DNA from: an uncultured Prevotella sp.
GTDB lineage: Bacteria > Bacteroidota > Bacteroidia > Bacteroidales > Bacteroidaceae
Assembly (NCBI GenBank): GCA_944320305.1
Contig: CALUGW010000010.1
Coordinates: 1 to 64,000, forward strand
Length of the DNA: 64,000 nt
Direction: 5' to 3'
The stretch's first letter is position 1; each line of letters begins with the position of its first letter. Positions 1 through 7,382 of this stretch are shown one piece after another. A program made the position numbers and the translations under genes. The notes below the pieces were generated by a model, which was not told the DNA's origin, did no database searches, and saw only the letters and a program-made list of their open reading frames with translations.

Positions 1-11
1 TGTATTCTCGT

Positions 12-452
12 TTATGAATATAACGGATTTTGGGCACAAACATTTTCATTCAAACTATTTTTGTGGATAAACTTATAATCAGAAATTAATCCTATTCTAT
101 CATCGTTCGTTCTAGGATCTTTTCTGATAGCTTTTATGCCGAAATGAGACTCGTTAATTTCTTTAGCTAACGTGACATAAGAATAGCCGTTTCTAATCAT
201 ACCTCTTTCATTAAAAAATTGGTATAGGAACTTTCCCTTGTCTGTTCTTCGATCAGGCCGATTGTATACTTTAGTGTCATCATCTGTCAATAGCCCCTTA
301 CATAACATTGCCATTACAAGAGAATAGATAGCGCAAGCACCATCTAGGTCTCCCTGTTGTTTGTGCAATTTTACCCATTTCCTGTTTTCATCAAGGATAC
401 ATAACCCTTTATGGTTAAGCCTAATTGAATCTATGATATGTATGTCTGACAT
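12..452 (-). CDS. Papain/C39-like cysteine protease-like protein, possibly incomplete
   Basis: This is a 146-residue protein of unknown function. Around residues 31-44 it reads KQQGDLDGACAIYS: a Gln seven residues before a Cys (Q33, C40) at the start of a helix, the pattern of the oxyanion-hole Gln and nucleophile Cys of papain-like and C39-like peptidases. No convincing catalytic His (a G-H-W/Y type segment) follows, and the frame closes at the very edge of the window, so the protein may be shortened, frameshifted, or a catalytically altered relative. It starts 5 bases after the hsdR stop codon and is evidently the last visible gene of the XRE/GIY-YIG/PIN/HsdR operon. It is A+T-rich like most of that operon. 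The protease assignment is inferred from the motif only. Confidence 0.55.
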   Translation of the reverse strand: MSDIHIIDSIRLNHKGLCILDENRKWVKLHKQQGDLDGACAIYSLVMAMLCKGLLTDDDTKVYNRPDRRTDKGKFLYQFFNERGMIRNGYSYVTLAKEINESHFGIKAIRKDPRTNDDRIGLISDYKFIHKNSLNENVCAQNPLYS

Positions 453-457
453 AAATG

Positions 458-3163
458 TTATGCTGTTTTACGATATAATAAGAACTTCGACAAAGAAGCA
501 AGTGCTTCATCAGCCTGCGACTTGCCGCCAAAGGCTTTGATGAGTTGTGCAGCCCGTGTCTTGTCATCGTCAATAATATCCTTAATGGTGCAAGCACCGT
601 TTGAGGCGATGTAGTCAACAATCTGACGGATAATGGTGATTTGCGATTCCGTCACTGTGCGCTGCACCTGTCCGTACCATAGGTTGAAACGCTGCTGTGC
701 CGAGGGATAGAGGCTTTCCAATGTCTCAATCTGATGGTTGGCGAAACGGACCAACTGAATGATATTCGTCAGCGCTTCCTTCTCTTCCTTGGTGCTGTGT
801 TTCTTGACAGACTGTGGATTGACTATCGTGTAGCAGTTCCACAGACGGGAAGTCTGGAACTTGTTGTTCGCCAGTTTCAGCTTGTTCTCCAAATCCTTCA
901 GCGTTGCGTAGGTCAGTGGCTCTCCGTCGTTGTTGTAAATCATGCGCAGAGCCTCTATCTCGTCCTGATGCTCATCGCAGTATTGCTCAAAAGCCGATGT
1001 CACCTCCTTGGCCTCCTCCTCAGAGAATCCCTTGGAGATGAGTTGGTCTTCTCCCGGCATCAAGGTTTCAATGAAGCCGGCGGCAAGGATAAGCAGATAT
1101 TGGCGTGCCTCGGGATGATGGGTCAGCGGAGCCACCAGCCCTTTGCGTTCAAGATTCGGTTCGTCGATACTTTCGTATGGAGGTAGAGAGTTTTTCTCAA
1201 AAGCATCAAAGATGGCTGCAGAGATTTCCTGCATCCCACTATAGGCCAGTCTCTGGAACTCTTCCCGTTGTTTATCCGATGATTTGTTGTAGATACGTGC
1301 GAGTTTGGCTGCAATCAGTCGCAGATAATCATCGTTGACATTGCCATGCGTCAGCAGTTCCAGCAATCGTTTGAGTGTGATGAGATGCACAGGTTCGCCA
1401 TCGCCAGGACTCGTTGTTATCTTCTGACTTTCGGTAACTCCTACAGCATCCACAAGGAAGAAGCAATCCTTACTAAAAGCATTAGGCGTGACGTTGCGCA
1501 ACTGGTCGTCGCCGATGGAGCGAACACCACGACCCTTCATCTGAATATACAGAGGCTCGGAAGCCACGTCGCGCATGAATATCAGCACTTCAAGCGGCTT
1601 TACGTCTGTTCCCGTAGCCACCAGCGTACAAGTGACTGCAATACGGAACTCCTTGTCGTTGCGGAACTGGCGAATCAGCTCGTTGCTGTCACCTGCGGAA
1701 TAGGTTATTTTCTGTACGAACTTATCATCTGTCCTGCCAAACACCTCTTTAGCTATGCGCACGATATTGTTGGCATGAATCTCATTCAAGGCAAAGATAA
1801 GGGTCTTAGGCAGATAGTCCATGATGGGCTCACGCTGTGGGTCGGTGAACATCTCCGTATAAACGGCATCGCGGTATATCTCCAGCACCAATTTGATTTG
1901 AGCCGGATTGATGACGCTGCGGTTCAGTTCCTCCTTGGTATAGTTCTTGGTTTCCTCATTGCGTACCGTCTCAACCTTGCCCGTATAGCGTGTTTCGCGT
2001 CTGAGTTTGTCACCCTTGAGGATGGCACCGCCGTTTTCGGTCGCCTCGGTCTTGATGCGATAGATGCGAGCATCCACGTTCACGCCATCCACGATGGACT
2101 GCTCCAGAGTGTAGTTTACGACGATATTGTTGTTGAAGAATGCTTTCGTCTCTGGTACTGGCGTTGCCGTCAGGCCGATGAGGTTAGCGGTATTGAAGTA
2201 TTCCAGCACTTTCTTCCAGTTGCCATAGATGGAACGGTGGCATTCGTCAATGATAATGAGATCGAAGAAATCAGGGGGTAGTGTCATGGCTCCCGTTAGC
2301 TGCACTTCGCTCGTGGCGGTATCTTCATCATCGTCATCGTTATCAACGATTTCCTGCCCAGTAAGAAGAGAGAACAGGCGTTGTATGGTAGAGATAACCA
2401 CGTTGCTATCGGATGGGACTTTTGCTGATTTCAGTCGGTTGACTGTATAGATGGTATTGAACGGGTCGCCATTCTCCGTTAGACGGAACATTCCGAACTC
2501 ACCTTCTGCCTGTTTGCCAAGATTGTTGCGGTCAACAAGGAAGAGGATGCGCTTCATGGGCATGAATGCCAAGAGACGGTAAGCTGCCAGACAAGCTGTG
2601 TAAGTCTTACCTGCTCCTGTTGCCAAGATAATCAATGCTTTTTTCTGTCCAGTGCGGAAACTGTTCTCCAGTTCTGTAATGGCTTCATATTGGCAATCGC
2701 GCAAACCTTTCTTTTTCAGAGTGGGCAAACCTGCGTATGGATCATCTATTCCCAGCATCTTTACAATCTCCTTTGGTGTATGGATGCGGTTCAACTCAAT
2801 GAGTTCTCCGTCTTCATCACGAAAGTCTCGGAAGAAGGTCTCTTCCCCGTTGGACTGGTAGATGATGGGCAATGGACGAGAATAGGCTTTGTAGCATTCT
2901 GGCACACCACGAGCATAGAGGTCTGCTTGTTCGCAAACCTTGTCAGAAGTAACGTCCACTTCCTTACGTTTCGCTTCAAGTACACCAACTGCCATACCGT
3001 TGATGAATAAGAAGTAGTCGGCTTCTCGATTCCCTTCAAGCAGGCCTTCTCGAATAGCCGCAGCTGTAAGAGTGGGAGTATAGAAATCTCTATCTACCAC
3101 TTTCCAACCAGCATCTTCAAACATCTGGTCTATCTTGACTCTTGCTTTTTCTTCTGGTTTCAT
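458..3163 (-). CDS. hsdR: Type I restriction enzyme, R (motor/nuclease) subunit
   Basis: About 901 residues. The N-terminal HSDR_N nuclease domain shows the PD-(D/E)xK pattern (D49, then E63-A-K65). A superfamily 2 helicase core follows: Walker A ATGAGKT at 181-187, a DEAH-box variant IIDECHR near residue 310, and motif III LTATP. The C-terminal third resembles the EcoEI R-subunit C-terminal domain. In type I systems HsdR translocates DNA and cleaves it at a distance when methylation by HsdM/HsdS is absent. I chose the ATG two bases after the PIN-gene stop; a TTG two codons upstream is also open. The gene is visibly less A+T-rich than its operon partners. No hsdM or hsdS lies in the window, so they are either beyond the left edge or missing. 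Confidence 0.93.
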   Translation of the reverse strand: MKPEEKARVKIDQMFEDAGWKVVDRDFYTPTLTAAAIREGLLEGNREADYFLFINGMAVGVLEAKRKEVDVTSDKVCEQADLYARGVPECYKAYSRPLPIIYQSNGEETFFRDFRDEDGELIELNRIHTPKEIVKMLGIDDPYAGLPTLKKKGLRDCQYEAITELENSFRTGQKKALIILATGAGKTYTACLAAYRLLAFMPMKRILFLVDRNNLGKQAEGEFGMFRLTENGDPFNTIYTVNRLKSAKVPSDSNVVISTIQRLFSLLTGQEIVDNDDDDEDTATSEVQLTGAMTLPPDFFDLIIIDECHRSIYGNWKKVLEYFNTANLIGLTATPVPETKAFFNNNIVVNYTLEQSIVDGVNVDARIYRIKTEATENGGAILKGDKLRRETRYTGKVETVRNEETKNYTKEELNRSVINPAQIKLVLEIYRDAVYTEMFTDPQREPIMDYLPKTLIFALNEIHANNIVRIAKEVFGRTDDKFVQKITYSAGDSNELIRQFRNDKEFRIAVTCTLVATGTDVKPLEVLIFMRDVASEPLYIQMKGRGVRSIGDDQLRNVTPNAFSKDCFFLVDAVGVTESQKITTSPGDGEPVHLITLKRLLELLTHGNVNDDYLRLIAAKLARIYNKSSDKQREEFQRLAYSGMQEISAAIFDAFEKNSLPPYESIDEPNLERKGLVAPLTHHPEARQYLLILAAGFIETLMPGEDQLISKGFSEEEAKEVTSAFEQYCDEHQDEIEALRMIYNNDGEPLTYATLKDLENKLKLANNKFQTSRLWNCYTIVNPQSVKKHSTKEEKEALTNIIQLVRFANHQIETLESLYPSAQQRFNLWYGQVQRTVTESQITIIRQIVDYIASNGACTIKDIIDDDKTRAAQLIKAFGGKSQADEALASLSKFLLYRKTA

Positions 3164-3165
3164 AC

Positions 3166-5355
3166 TCAATTAATTTGTTGAGCTTCGCGAATATATACCT
3201 CATATGATTTTGTTATCAACTTATCAGGAATTTTTATAGTTTCCTTGTAGTCTTCTACGTAAACAGGATCATAGAATTTTGCAGCCTTATTTATAACAAA
3301 ATACTCAATGATTAAAAGGACAATGGACAAAATCCATCCCCATCCTTTACTTCCACCTACAAAGGCAATAAAATGTGAATATAACGAATTGTCAAAAAAT
3401 TGCAAAAAGAAGGCGAAAAGAATGATAATGCCTAATATGATAACCCATATAATGCTGTTACGTTTCTTCTTTTTAACGATACGTTTTAAATAAGCCTCTC
3501 TTTCTGATTCCATATCTCGACAATATTTATCGTATAAATTCCTAAGGAGCGCATCTTTTTCTGAAATTTGAGCCGATAAAGAATCTTTTTCACGTTTCAT
3601 TTCAGATTCCTTATCTTTAAGTCTTGCTGACTCACTTTTCAAAGCGGATTCTTTAGCATCTAACGCTTCCATACGTTCTTCATGTTTCTTCTGAAGATTT
3701 TCTTTATTGCTTTGCAATTCTTTAATTAGATTACCAGCCGTTTTAAACAATTCTTCAAACTTTCTTGCACTAATAGTTCTTGCCAATTCTTCCTTTCTCG
3801 ACTCATCTTTTACACGTATGGCAAATGCTTGAGCATCATTTTTCGCTAACTGGTTTAGTGAATCAACATCTTTTATCTGACGATTTGCAATTCGAGTTGA
3901 AAGATTGACGACATCCTTATCAGTTAGATTATAATCTTTACGATATTTCTGGATATTATCGTCAAGTTCCTTGATTATTCTTGACTTAGGCAAAGATGAA
4001 TTTATCGTATATGAAATAAGAGATGTTATTCCCATATCAATTATTTCATCCTTCGATAAATCTATTTGAGGATTGCTCAACCATATAATGTTCAATAAAT
4101 CATCTACTTTAATAATCTCTGGCAGTCCACTTTTGTTTAGTTGTAATTCGCCAAGACGAGTGCCATTGGTGTCAGAATCATGACTAATAGCATTATTTAC
4201 GAACCAGCAATTACACTTCTCAAACTCTCTAATAGCCTTATTATTCCTTTTCTCTCGTACATAAATGATTGCCATCGCATCATGGAGGGCAGCCTTGTCT
4301 GTATTGCGAACTTTACGTAAAGTTTCATATTCTTTACTATATCTGGCTTTGTTCCTTAAAGATTCGGGGTGTGGTTTTATAGAAAACTTATAAGTTTGTG
4401 TAAGAGTCTCTGCTAAATTGTCTGACAATCGATCTAGGTCAACACTTGACAGATGCCGACGTTCACAGGCATTATAGATGTCCTCTTTATTAATAGCTTT
4501 AGCTATTATAGCGGTATTTAGATTTTCAGATTTATAAGCTAAAAGAGACTGTATTTCATCAATAGTATCTTGTAATACAGTGAATGTATATCCAAGATTC
4601 TTGCATACAGATATCAATGTGTTACAAGTTCTTGTTGATTCTTTTGTATTCAAATCGAGAAGACTGACAATAAAGTTGGTGTCTAATAAGAGTTCAACAT
4701 CCATCTTTACATTTTGTGGATGAAATTCTATGTAGCTTGTTAATATAGAACCTAAGTACATATCACGCAATTTGTTATACACTTCGGGCCGAGATTTGAA
4801 CATCTCTACAAATTTTGCAGCAGTAACGCTCTCTTGTTCATTACATCTATCATTATGGGAAAGATAATAAGAGATTTCCACTCGATTCCTCTCAATGAAG
4901 TGAAAAATAGCGTTTTCATTATTCTCTTCAGCTATACCAACAATTTTACAGAATTGCGAATAAAGTTTCTTTATTTGATTGACATCATCCCGGCTCTTTT
5001 GTATTTCATCAATATAATCGTCAAATATGTAGTTCTCTATCCAGAAACTTCCATCATTATTAACTGTCATTTCTGGTTTATCACCATGAGAATTTTTATT
5101 TGCTTCGTTGGCTATTAAGCGAAGAATTTGTAACATAACAGGACTTGGAATATCAAGACCATATTCCATCTGAAGAGTCTCACATATTTCGGAAACATGT
5201 GCGCCTTTAATATCCTTTTTCTTATGCAAGATGTTTTTCACTAATGGAACAAATATATCGAGCGGACCATTAGTTAGGCTGCCAGAGTCTTTTATATGTG
5301 CCAAAAGGCTATATGCCACAGCCCTTCGCATTGAGGAATTATCTGTTGTTCCCAT
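3166..5355 (-). CDS. Membrane-anchored PIN-like nuclease with coiled coil
   Basis: A 729-residue protein I do not recognise as a named family. Residues 1-215 are a mostly helical N-terminal region. Residues ~218-395 look like a PIN nuclease domain: D225 at the end of a hydrophobic strand (ELLLDTNF), E267 in a helix (DTIDEI), D359 (ALHDAMAI), and a final strand CWFVNNAISHD, where Asn takes the place of the usual late Asp. A long charged coiled coil spans ~515-625, then a Lys/Arg-rich stretch, two transmembrane helices (~634-653 and ~674-690) and a ~40-residue tail. This suggests a metal-dependent RNase or DNase held at the inner membrane. It sits 11 bases after the GIY-YIG gene and 2 bases before hsdR, so it is part of the same transcript. 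Strongly A+T-rich. The PIN call is motif-based inference. Confidence 0.72.
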   Translation of the reverse strand: MGTTDNSSMRRAVAYSLLAHIKDSGSLTNGPLDIFVPLVKNILHKKKDIKGAHVSEICETLQMEYGLDIPSPVMLQILRLIANEANKNSHGDKPEMTVNNDGSFWIENYIFDDYIDEIQKSRDDVNQIKKLYSQFCKIVGIAEENNENAIFHFIERNRVEISYYLSHNDRCNEQESVTAAKFVEMFKSRPEVYNKLRDMYLGSILTSYIEFHPQNVKMDVELLLDTNFIVSLLDLNTKESTRTCNTLISVCKNLGYTFTVLQDTIDEIQSLLAYKSENLNTAIIAKAINKEDIYNACERRHLSSVDLDRLSDNLAETLTQTYKFSIKPHPESLRNKARYSKEYETLRKVRNTDKAALHDAMAIIYVREKRNNKAIREFEKCNCWFVNNAISHDSDTNGTRLGELQLNKSGLPEIIKVDDLLNIIWLSNPQIDLSKDEIIDMGITSLISYTINSSLPKSRIIKELDDNIQKYRKDYNLTDKDVVNLSTRIANRQIKDVDSLNQLAKNDAQAFAIRVKDESRKEELARTISARKFEELFKTAGNLIKELQSNKENLQKKHEERMEALDAKESALKSESARLKDKESEMKREKDSLSAQISEKDALLRNLYDKYCRDMESEREAYLKRIVKKKKRNSIIWVIILGIIILFAFFLQFFDNSLYSHFIAFVGGSKGWGWILSIVLLIIEYFVINKAAKFYDPVYVEDYKETIKIPDKLITKSYEVYIREAQQIN

Positions 5356-5366
5356 AATTGATAAGT

Positions 5367-6218
5367 TTATCTTTTTACAGTCTCACTTAACTTCTTTCCT
5401 TCAGCATCTTTCCAATCATCCCATCCATTGCTTGGACGACCAAGAACAAAGCTAGACGCACCACTTGGGCTATCAAATGGAACATCGTGGAGAAGGACTA
5501 TCTGTCCCTTGTCTTTCTTACAATGCTCGTTAATAAACAGGTCACGCGAAGCTATAGATTTAAAACTTTTGACCACTTCTGCTGCCAGAAAGCTACCTTC
5601 CATGAGTATAAATTTCCCTTCTTGTTCATCATAGAAACCCATACCTTGTGCAGGGCGGTCGGAGGACTTCACAAAAAACATATGTTCAGAATGAGTTTCT
5701 TTCTTTGCTTTCTCAAAGATACCGCATCCGTAAAACTTACACAACAACTGAATGTCCCGGAAGAAGACCTCCATATCATTGACTCGGTAAGGAGCAATGT
5801 TTGGCTTTTTAGGGTTGGCCCCATTTAGAAGCTCATACGAACATGCGCTTTGGGCTGCATCAATGCCAAGATATTCCAGGTATTTAACATCATCACCGTA
5901 GATTTTGTGATTGTCAGAAATAAACACCAAAGCTGTACTCCAGAAGTCTTTCTTCTGAACATGATCGTTCTTTCGATTGGCAAAGTCTGTTGTTTGGCCT
6001 ATATAGGCTTGCGGCTTATTTGCATCAGGTGAGCTAAGGAGAATATAGAAGGCTGGTTGCCCAGAAATATCACTGATTGTATTTGCTAATGTAATATCTT
6101 CACGAGGTATTACATATAGGTGGCATGTGGAATTAGCCCCCATATAAATGTTCCTTGCTCCATCGAGTTTGCCATCAAGAAGCTCGGTGTGTATGGTGAA
6201 AGTATTCTTGGTCTTCAT
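5367..6218 (-). CDS. GIY-YIG nuclease-like protein with DUF4357 domain
   Basis: 283 residues. The GIY-YIG fold signature appears as FYI at 57-59 and YIG at 72-74, followed by R82 in NRKNDH and E115 in KYLEYLG, which are plausible equivalents of the catalytic Arg and metal-binding Glu. The C-terminal part (~205-275) ends with GASSFVLGRPSNGWDDW, the hallmark of DUF4357, a small domain often fused to GIY-YIG proteins near restriction-modification loci. Its start codon overlaps the stop of the XRE regulator gene by the ATGA arrangement, so the two are translationally coupled. It probably acts as a DNA endonuclease or an accessory factor of the restriction operon; which of these cannot be told from sequence. 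Confidence 0.85.
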   Translation of the reverse strand: MKTKNTFTIHTELLDGKLDGARNIYMGANSTCHLYVIPREDITLANTISDISGQPAFYILLSSPDANKPQAYIGQTTDFANRKNDHVQKKDFWSTALVFISDNHKIYGDDVKYLEYLGIDAAQSACSYELLNGANPKKPNIAPYRVNDMEVFFRDIQLLCKFYGCGIFEKAKKETHSEHMFFVKSSDRPAQGMGFYDEQEGKFILMEGSFLAAEVVKSFKSIASRDLFINEHCKKDKGQIVLLHDVPFDSPSGASSFVLGRPSNGWDDWKDAEGKKLSETVKR

Positions 6219-6430
6219 GACTTTCTATCTATTCTAATGAGTTCCGTATAATCTATATCAAGCAGATTCGATATTTTCTCTATTGTTTCCAGTGATGGCT
6301 GTGAAGAATTGGTGCACCATTTAGATACAGTGGTTGGAGCGCAACCTAATTGTTCCGCCAGCCATTTGTTTGTTTTCTTTTTTTCGGCTAAAATCACTTT
6401 CAAGCGATTTAAATCTTTTGCTTCTTCCAT
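6215..6430 (-). CDS. XRE-family transcriptional regulator
   Basis: A 71-residue single-domain Cro/CI-type helix-turn-helix protein. Helices 2 and 3 are represented by WLAEQLGCAPTTVSKWC, followed by a conserved SLETIEKISNLLDID segment. As the first gene of the left-edge operon it most likely autoregulates the cluster, in the manner of the controller proteins of restriction-modification systems. A TAnnTTTG element lies just upstream on the minus strand. The next gene, GIY-YIG/DUF4357, overlaps it by 4 bases. Confidence 0.9.
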   Translation of the reverse strand: MEEAKDLNRLKVILAEKKKTNKWLAEQLGCAPTTVSKWCTNSSQPSLETIEKISNLLDIDYTELIRIDRKS

Positions 6431-6874
6431 GCTTATTATAATTATTATGGTGCAAAGTTAGCAAATTACTCTCTGAAACAATCACATTTTAAGGAAAAAG
6501 ATGCAATTAAATATGGTTTTAGTGAATTATTTTCACTTAAAAAGGCGGATGGGCCAGAAACAAATCATCAGCTCTAATTGATGAATTATAACAGTACACA
6601 CTTTCTATTTAGAATTGGGAAGCATACAGTTAATTCGTTTGTCGAAACCAACAATATTTTAATTTGGCAGTCCTAACTGCCGAAATATATTTTTTTAATC
6701 GTATCGATTTGCGATTAAAGACTTTGATTGATTTCCTGCAATACACTCTTCCATTCAGGTAATGAAATCTACCATTCATCCCAAATTCGTGTTTTTCTGG
6801 TGGGGAAGACGGGGCTCACTTTGCACGAACTCTTGCAGATGTGGGGAAAATGTGGGGAAATTCGAGAAAAGAAA
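6431..6874. other. Gene-free A+T-rich junction between the operon and tRNA-Leu
   Basis: About 450 bases with no convincing gene. Beyond the operon promoter it holds A+T-rich sequence and a near-duplicated GTGGGGAAAATGTGGGGAAA segment at 6841-6860, just before the tRNA terminator. Position and composition fit the edge of an integrated element, but no integrase fragment or long direct repeat is visible. Confidence 0.45.
6453..6460 (-). promoter_or_regulatory. Putative -7 element of the defence operon
   Basis: On the minus strand this reads TAACTTTG, matching the Bacteroidota -7 consensus, 22 bases upstream of the XRE start codon. No clear TTTG -33 element is found 19-20 bases further up, which may mean that expression is weak or depends on an activator. 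Confidence 0.5.
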
Positions 6875-6912
6875 AATCGCTAAATCTCTTGCTATTAGAG
6901 GTTTAGCGATTA
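6875..6912 (-). terminator. Terminator of tRNA-Leu
   Basis: A near-perfect inverted repeat with arms AATCGCTAAA and TTTAGCGATT, extended by CTCT/AGAG, and followed on the minus strand by a TTTTTCTTTTC tract. This is a typical intrinsic terminator placed 18 bases after the tRNA 3' end. Confidence 0.8.
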
Positions 6913-6929
6913 CTTTCGAGTTAAACTCG

Positions 6930-7011
6930 TACCCAGACCCGGGATCGAACCGGGATGGATTGCTCCACTGGTGTTTGAGACCAGCGCGTCTACCGATTCC
7001 GCCATCTGGGC
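6930..7011 (-). tRNA. tRNA-Leu, anticodon CAA
   Basis: The minus strand folds as a class II tRNA: acceptor GCCCAGA pairing with TCTGGGT (one G-U pair), discriminator A, anticodon loop CTCAAAC giving CAA, a long variable arm TGGA/TCCA, and a T-loop GTTCGATCC. CCA is not encoded. The 3' end faces the A+T-rich restriction island, the usual geometry for integration into a tRNA gene. Confidence 0.95.
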
Positions 7012-7024
7012 ATTGTTGCGGATG

Positions 7025-7055
7025 CAAAGGTACACATAAAATCCGTATTAGCAAA
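7025..7055 (-). promoter_or_regulatory. Promoter of tRNA-Leu
   Basis: On the minus strand TTTG (7052-7055), a 19-base spacer, then TACCTTTG (7025-7032): a full match to the Bacteroidota vegetative promoter, 13 bases upstream of the tRNA 5' end. Confidence 0.75.
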
Positions 7056-7382
7056 TTTTTTATTCAAAAAACTTAAAATCTTTGCCAGTGTCAAGGTTTA
7101 TCAGTAACTTAGTACGCATAAAACAAAATGCAGGACGGCGGCACACCGGAAAAGCCCGCGCCGCAAGATGATGAAAACGTGGCGCAAAACGCATATCCGG
7201 AGGCCATAAAGAAAAATGTAAATGCCAGCAATCTGCCAAATGCCCAAATATTCGGGGGCGCGGAACGACAGACATAAATGCGGGGAATGCGCGTCTGGAC
7301 AGGTCTGACGTAAAAAAGATTTAGGATGACATGACGCGGCCTTTAAGAAACGACACAACAAAAAAACAAACTTATATCTGAT
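7056..7382. other. Intergenic region between tRNA-Leu and manC, no confident gene
   Basis: It contains no recognised gene. An ATG-initiated 49-codon frame (7128-7277, plus strand) is present but has no supporting feature. The last 60 bases before manC are A-rich and probably form its leader; no clear TAnnTTTG is seen. Confidence 0.4.

Follow-up and report, generated by a model that had tools for sequence, protein, structure and literature searches.

A putative membrane-anchored PIN protein recurs among the interchangeable accessory genes of type I restriction-modification operons

The first 64,000 nucleotides of contig CALUGW010000010.1 (C10 below) from an uncultured Prevotella species (assembly GCA_944320305.1, 2.72 Mb in 41 contigs), referred to here as the window, open on a cluster of five minus-strand genes that includes hsdR, the gene for the motor subunit of a type I restriction-modification (R-M) system. 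The cluster is not a new five-gene system but a type I R-M locus, broken in this genome, whose accessory genes are interchangeable. One of the accessories, a 729-amino-acid (aa) protein with a PIN-like domain and transmembrane (TM)-like segments, called PIN-TM in what follows, turns up repeatedly in type I R-M operons that belong to different HsdR/HsdM types. The open-access literature searched yielded no description of such a protein within a type I operon, and this R-M-linked accessory family, which follows a known logic, is the part of the locus worth pursuing.

The cluster represents the 5' half of a type I operon

Five open reading frames (ORFs) on the minus strand span positions 6430 to 12 with spacings of -4, 11, 2 and 5 bases, and the initial annotation, made from the sequence alone, correctly described them as one tightly spaced unit in which two extra nuclease-like proteins accompany a type I motor subunit. 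The first gene (6215..6430) encodes a 71-aa XRE/Cro-type regulator with a Cro/C1 helix-turn-helix (HTH_26, 2e-11), the second (5367..6218) a 283-aa GIY-YIG/DUF4357 protein, and the third (3166..5355) PIN-TM, the only one of the five proteins with clear TM-like segments by hydropathy. HsdR itself (903 aa, 458..3169) has a SWI2/SNF2-type motor and an EcoEI_R_C domain (ResIII 2e-37, EcoEI_R_C 1.6e-29), as well as a Pfam match to HSDR_N (7e-8) that is partial but over the cut-off; its ORF starts at TTG, from which the gap to the preceding gene is -4 bases, or 2 bases if counted from the ATG two codons later. The fifth ORF (12..452) is 146 codons long, and within it positions 78..452 correspond to the 5' part (~126 codons) of a gene for a C39-like cysteine peptidase. 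The earlier domain assignments for the XRE, GIY-YIG/DUF4357 and HsdR proteins were borne out by Pfam matches, the one to GIY-YIG being just under the cut-off.

Since the window starts at the first base of C10, the number five marks the point where the assembly stops and not the end of the locus. A scan of genome contigs with the 729-aa protein identified a second uncultured Prevotella contig, L018, on which the protein is present at 100% identity. The gene order there is XRE, GIY-YIG, the 729-aa protein, HsdR, a 220-aa protein, HsdM, Schlafen AlbA_2, HsdS and an inverted second HsdS. What had been taken for a non-canonical system without hsdM and hsdS is thus the 5' half of an hsdR-hsdM-hsdS operon with an EcoEI-type R subunit and accessory genes, both missing genes being found directly downstream in this intact relative.

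Accessory genes vary independently of hsdR

To follow the neighbours of this hsdR, the R-M family was defined as HsdR proteins scoring over 1000 bits. HsdR matches were present in 36 genomes and 20 HsdR regions were retrieved. The family numbered 13 loci when the window and L018, which have a recently exchanged stretch in common, were counted once. Two loci with HsdR at 47% and 57% identity (L065 and L124) were left out as contig-limited or partial and below 1000 bits; neither shows PIN-TM, C39 or GIY-YIG genes. Also left out were all HsdR proteins at 36–42% identity, nine of which were inspected; in these nine loci (L125–L133, HsdR identity 37–39%) there was likewise no PIN-TM, C39 or GIY-YIG gene.

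Within the 13 loci the accessory genes come and go. PIN-TM is present in a single locus, the one that includes the starting locus, while the GIY-YIG gene lies upstream on the same strand in two and is divergent in one. An XRE gene precedes hsdR in 5/13, counting ORFs of at least 60 aa only, and a C39-like gene is found in 4/13, the latter figure being biased upward because one of the four (L154, an IMG/VR contig) was itself found by the C39 search; without it the count is 3/12. The interval between hsdM and hsdS is occupied by a DUF1016/YhcG-type gene in eight loci (called by Pfam for L158 and by similarity for the remainder), by AlbA_2 in one and by nothing in four. The neighbours therefore vary independently of hsdR, a pattern that the initial annotation itself had listed as one that would refute its proposal.

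That proposal was a single dedicated composite system of five genes, in which sensing by HsdR is tied to a membrane effector. The tight spacing and the recurrence of the same five genes in L018 speak for it. However, the complete set is present in only one of the 13 loci of this R-M family, so that the five-gene order is not a conserved one; moreover, L018 continues with hsdM and hsdS, and in the window the fifth gene is truncated. An obligatory five-gene system was accordingly rejected on the count of loci, and we regard the dedicated composite as very improbable.

Several R-M-family loci (L018, L119, L120 and L159) have inverted extra hsdS copies after hsdS. In two of them, L120 and L159, these copies are interspersed with a gene of the phage-integrase family, and the arrangement there looks like an invertible, phase-variable specificity module.

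PIN-TM recurs in type I operons of different types

Relatives of PIN-TM are infrequent. A single-protein search found them in 8/393 genomes of the order, with three weak partial matches, and a profile search in 7/395 genomes of the phylum, the window's own genome being included in both counts; four loci on genome contigs, L018 among them, were also identified. None was found in plasmid or phage collections by tblastn, and none in viral contigs searched with several PIN-TM queries. For the analysis of context, the window and L018 were counted as one locus, as were L020 and L021 (the L021 contig shows only HsdR beside PIN-TM). L034 was dropped as a 3,687-base contig without context, as were L015, L016 and L017, which are partial matches (E ~4e-4 to 9e-4), two of them covering the coiled coil or TM part only. 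Twelve loci with readable context remained.

In six of these 12 loci PIN-TM lies within a type I R-M operon, and it does so in five different arrangements: upstream of hsdR in the window and L018, downstream of hsdR in L020/L021, between hsdM and hsdS in L031 and L045, downstream of hsdS in L047, and between hsdS and hsdR in L050. The identities of HsdM, HsdS and HsdR in the R-M-linked loci were confirmed by Pfam. As a background, 20 genomes were used, namely the window's own with 11 others of its genus and eight of its order; the 26 HsdM_N genes they contain place ~0.9% of positions within 10 kb of such a gene, and the chance of finding six of 12 PIN-TM loci near HsdM_N is then about 4e-10, to be read as an order of magnitude only, with the background coming from close relatives and some PIN-TM loci from other classes. 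L050 and L049 are weak members of the family (E 3e-5 and 2e-7, respectively), and without L050 the linkage becomes 5/11. The earlier view of the membrane protein as a defence accessory is supported by these counts.

The operons concerned represent different R-M types. Across the six pairs that can be formed among L018, L020, L031 and L045, local alignments gave 37–44% identity for PIN-TM as opposed to 23–29% for HsdR/HsdM. The PIN-TM proteins of L047 and L050 are so diverged (~20%, or no real alignment) that this contrast cannot be applied to them. The 729-aa protein is thus an accessory shared by type I operons whose HsdR/HsdM types differ. Other genes of a defence type also appear beside it. 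RloA/RloB-type genes lie ahead of PIN-TM in L019 ('RloA' being a label for an AAA_21 protein beside a Pfam RloB), an AAA_15 ATPase gene is adjacent in L033 and two genes away in L047, an OLD-type ATPase gene precedes PIN-TM in L050, and L020 includes a GmrSD gene.

Two counts weigh against a functional tie to restriction. Four of the 12 PIN-TM loci (L032, L046, L048 and L049) have neither an R-M gene nor a defence ATPase gene as a neighbour, and PIN-TM is present in none of 18 HsdM-anchored loci from other genomes of the window's genus. In L046 the PIN-TM gene is split by a stop. The first of these counts fits a reading in which the accessories are passengers, that is, independent defence genes in a permissive site beside type I genes that have only a promoter in common with them, without functional coupling to HsdR. 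Such a reading is also in line with the independent gain and loss of GIY-YIG, PIN-TM, C39, AlbA_2 and DUF1016 genes around the same hsdR/hsdM/hsdS family, and with the GIY-YIG family residing mostly elsewhere, as described below. On the other hand, positions inside the operon are less readily accommodated by it: the C39-like gene lies between hsdR and hsdM in all four R-M-family loci that have it, and PIN-TM is between hsdM and hsdS in L031 and L045. We consider the passenger explanation possible but rather less probable than a latent effector behind restriction, which is taken up in the final section.

PIN-TM has PIN-like acidic motifs and a hydrophobic hairpin

Four parts were distinguished in the 729-aa protein: a winged-helix-like N-terminus (residues ~26–116, from low-confidence models and fold comparison), a PIN-like domain (residues ~218–400, with D225, T264, E267 and D359), a long helix or coiled coil (residues ~510–650), and a C-terminal hydrophobic hairpin of two segments, identified by hydropathy. 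The earlier PIN reading is favoured by the conservation of the acidic motif residues (D225 and D359 in 13/13, E267 in 11/13) and by fold comparison, in which VapC-type PIN ribonucleases were the best neighbours at low model confidence; Pfam gave it no support. No informative family match was obtained for the protein in Pfam, NCBIfam or PADLOC, in which eight family members were scanned as well, and these scans revealed no ABC-ATPase or HEPN tRNase domain. When a PIN-TM profile was compared with three VapC proteins, the alignment covered no more than motif I, and a profile search of the sequences of solved structures returned matches in the C-terminal half only, at E 0.19 or worse. The hairpin varies within the family: L049 is without a TM-like segment and L048 has one.

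Several candidate matches were set aside. Pfam matches such as DUF2207_C and EMC3 were below cut-off and in the coiled-coil/TM part. Matches of single family members to PD-Lambda-5_A (PADLOC, E 0.0028) and to SMC and an unrelated synthase (NCBIfam, E ~0.002) were taken as chance or coiled-coil similarity.

The combination of a winged-helix-like N-terminus, a nuclease-like domain and a hydrophobic hairpin could also suit a nuclease acting at phage entry. In that case the anchored protein would cut incoming phage DNA, held by the winged helix, and R-M would provide a second, independent cut. A precedent is SNIPE, a membrane-bound nuclease able to cut entering phage DNA (PMC13190303). PIN-TM, however, has no Pfam match to DUF4041 or GIY-YIG, its nuclease domain is PIN-like and not GIY-YIG, and VapC-like PIN domains are generally known to act mostly on RNA. 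Direct cutting of phage DNA at the membrane is therefore an unlikely function for PIN-TM. SNIPE is, as PIN-TM may be, a membrane-anchored nuclease in phage defence; the two differ in that SNIPE combines TM, DUF4041 and GIY-YIG in a single protein (PMC13190303), whereas here the GIY-YIG protein is separate and free of TM-like segments and the putatively anchored protein is PIN-like.

PIN-TM and VapC proteins have conserved acidic motifs in common. PIN-TM is nonetheless about five times longer and has the coiled coil and hydrophobic hairpin in addition, and no VapB-like antitoxin gene was recognised beside it, although no search aimed at VapB was made. The small gene upstream in the window is the XRE regulator, which is present in R-M-family loci without PIN-TM as well. 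A role for XRE as the antitoxin of PIN-TM was rejected, because it precedes hsdR in L117, L118, L120 and L159, all of which are without PIN-TM. For the same reason, XRE is probably a control regulator of the R-M genes.

The GIY-YIG and C39-like genes are separate accessories

Among the interchangeable accessories, the GIY-YIG/DUF4357 protein and the C39-like peptidase each stand on their own. The 283-aa protein matches the PADLOC defence candidate PDC-S14 at E 2e-60 over residues 5–280, near its full length, and is a member of that group, from which no difference was seen. In Pfam it scores 60 bits (1.9e-16) for DUF4357 and 22.1 bits for GIY-YIG, the cut-off of the latter being 22.6; DUF4041 gave no match, and hydropathy showed no TM-like segment. 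Matches to this family were present in 36 genomes, and 22 loci from 21 of these genomes were inspected. A type I gene lies within ~5 kb in six of the 22 loci (hsd identity was confirmed for L134, L137 and L140), and the family is mostly unlinked to R-M.

The initial annotation had suggested a cysteine protease for the fifth gene. This guess agrees with intact relatives, in which Cys, His and Asp are conserved, but the window copy ends before the His and Asp. The 220-aa protein of L018 and its relatives have a QG(D/E)xDGAC cysteine motif in common, with the Cys present in 9/9 aligned rows and the His and an LDP Asp in 8/8 full-length rows of the family alignment. PF13529 (Peptidase_C39_2) was over the cut-off in one of seven scanned relatives, below it in two and absent from four; one relative, located on a plasmid, carries the annotation C39 family peptidase. 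On these sequence features the 220-aa protein looks like a C39-type cysteine peptidase. Members were found in 4/393 genomes of the order: the window's own, two more in which the gene lies between hsdR and hsdM, and L153.

Some relatives occupy other contexts. In L153 (3342–7567) the C39-like gene overlaps the gene for a 1,191-aa Schlafen AlbA_2 protein, with no hsd genes nearby; AlbA_2, encountered here beside a C39-like gene, also follows hsdM in L018. On the Prevotella plasmid pE2-28 (L155, 1–9383) a C39 family peptidase is clustered with a DEAD/DEAH helicase, a PLD-like protein (just under cut-off) and Sir2, a grouping that may represent a further defence cluster with a peptidase of this family. 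A Pseudomonas aeruginosa plasmid gene annotated as hcuA (L156, 7920–8543) encodes a distant C39-like relative (28–30% identity) that has kept the QGDxDGAC motif.

The window copy is interrupted and partly exchanged

The fifth gene was originally read as a complete protein, yet it is truncated and runs into a repeat. Positions 1..77 belong to one end of a repeated element, which breaks into the peptidase gene and at which the contig stops, with identical 75–77-base copies at the end of contig C40, at the start of C6 and within C34. The window matches L018 at 97% from position 7079 down to 74, where identity ends. Because the identity to L018 stops where the repeat begins, the 146-aa ORF can be understood as ~126 native codons followed by repeat-derived codons. 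It has no family match over cut-off; its native part is 98% identical to residues 1–128 of the L018 relative, and it leaves the peptidase family after about residue 126. A complete protease was rejected for this ORF, its identity to the 220-aa relative running out in the repeat. On C6 the repeat directly adjoins a gene whose product has SAM-like and arm-binding domains of the phage-integrase type.

The L018-like hsdM-hsdS DNA had no match in the 41-contig assembly, C10 ending at the repeat. The sole HsdM_N match in this genome belongs to a separate type I locus on C6, and five weak PF02384 matches over the cut-off (21.6–46 bits) are located elsewhere, on contigs C2, C14, C12 and C5. The C6 locus (L030, 6018–13825) encodes HsdM, a DUF1016/YhcG nuclease, an HsdS-like protein, a 223-aa protein and HsdR. 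With the operon cut by a repeated element and its hsdM and hsdS unseen, the window copy may be inactive in restriction.

At the other end, the upstream edge of the island is a tRNA-Leu(CAA) gene (6929..7011, minus strand), which is also the neighbour in L018 and was not found in the inspected stretches of the other 12 R-M-family loci. Upstream of the first operon gene, minus-strand positions 6453..6481 hold what we take to be a candidate Bacteroidota-type promoter (TTG, 18 bases, TAACTTTG). The next gene beyond the tRNA, in the window and L018 alike, is presumably that for a mannose-1-phosphate guanylyltransferase-like protein, and the two copies match in pieces at 71 and 78% identity. Within the island, window positions 2157–7079 form a mosaic with respect to L018: ~86–94% over the stretch that runs from the tRNA, across the XRE gene, into the first part of the GIY-YIG gene, 99–100% across the PIN-TM gene (the stretch from 5656 down to 2907), and 90–95% in part of hsdR. 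The contrast between 99–100% identity inside the island and 71–78% in the flanking gene suggests, from alignment of the two contigs, that part of the island was recently exchanged between species.

A possible latent effector behind restriction

How might PIN-TM act? We somewhat favour a reading in which the window preserves the front half of a type I operon with an XRE regulator and swappable accessories, and the 729-aa protein is a latent membrane PIN effector standing behind restriction. PIN-TM would be a membrane-anchored PIN nuclease, most likely a ribonuclease, that is held inactive in the resting cell. An infection or an anti-restriction activity that disturbs the R-M complex or the envelope would release it, and the released protein would then arrest growth or translation, forming a second line after restriction, in the way that PrrC acts with EcoprrI. 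The scheme is conjectural as regards the signal for release, the substrate and any contact of PIN-TM with HsdR or HsdM. An extension to the whole family is more tentative and, in our view, rather doubtful: a restriction-guarding family in which a membrane-tethered PIN ribonuclease moves between type I operons and is unleashed by inhibition of the R-M complex or by engagement of its DNA-cutting step, so that a failure of restriction would lead to translation shut-off from the membrane. In the present operon, the C39-like peptidase encoded between hsdR and hsdM could then be the releasing protease of a three-step guard.

A close parallel is PrrC, the anticodon nuclease of EcoprrI, a type Ic system. 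PrrC is kept silent by the R-M enzyme until T4 Stp or a change in dTTP sets it free, and HEPN toxins are found repeatedly in R-M operons (PMC3710099, PMC12707154). In both cases a nuclease-type accessory gene lies within the hsd operon, and for PIN-TM, too, disturbance of the R-M enzyme is the proposed trigger of release. The proteins themselves differ, PrrC being an ABC-ATPase joined to a HEPN tRNase (PMC3710099), whereas PIN-TM is made up of winged-helix-like, PIN-like, coiled-coil and hydrophobic-hairpin parts. The Rlo genes offer a second parallel as variable genes between hsd genes, R-linked ORFs such as RloF (DUF262/GmrS) being described in this position (PMC4619093); genes of RloA/RloB and GmrSD type are found in two of the PIN-TM loci. 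No PIN-TM protein appears in the Rlo descriptions consulted (PMC4619093). PIN ribonucleases that operate in anti-phage defence without an antitoxin have a precedent in DS-3 and DS-5 (PMC13092281).

The PIN-TM family occurs in several types of type I operon and would, if the proposed role is right, be a portable further example of restriction coupled to an effector, with a different enzyme and with membrane anchoring. To our knowledge, coupling of restriction to a suicidal or dormancy effector is well characterised in a few cases only, PrrC among them. The variable accessory slots around one hsdR/hsdM/hsdS family, in turn, amount to a natural swap experiment on the roles of the accessory genes.
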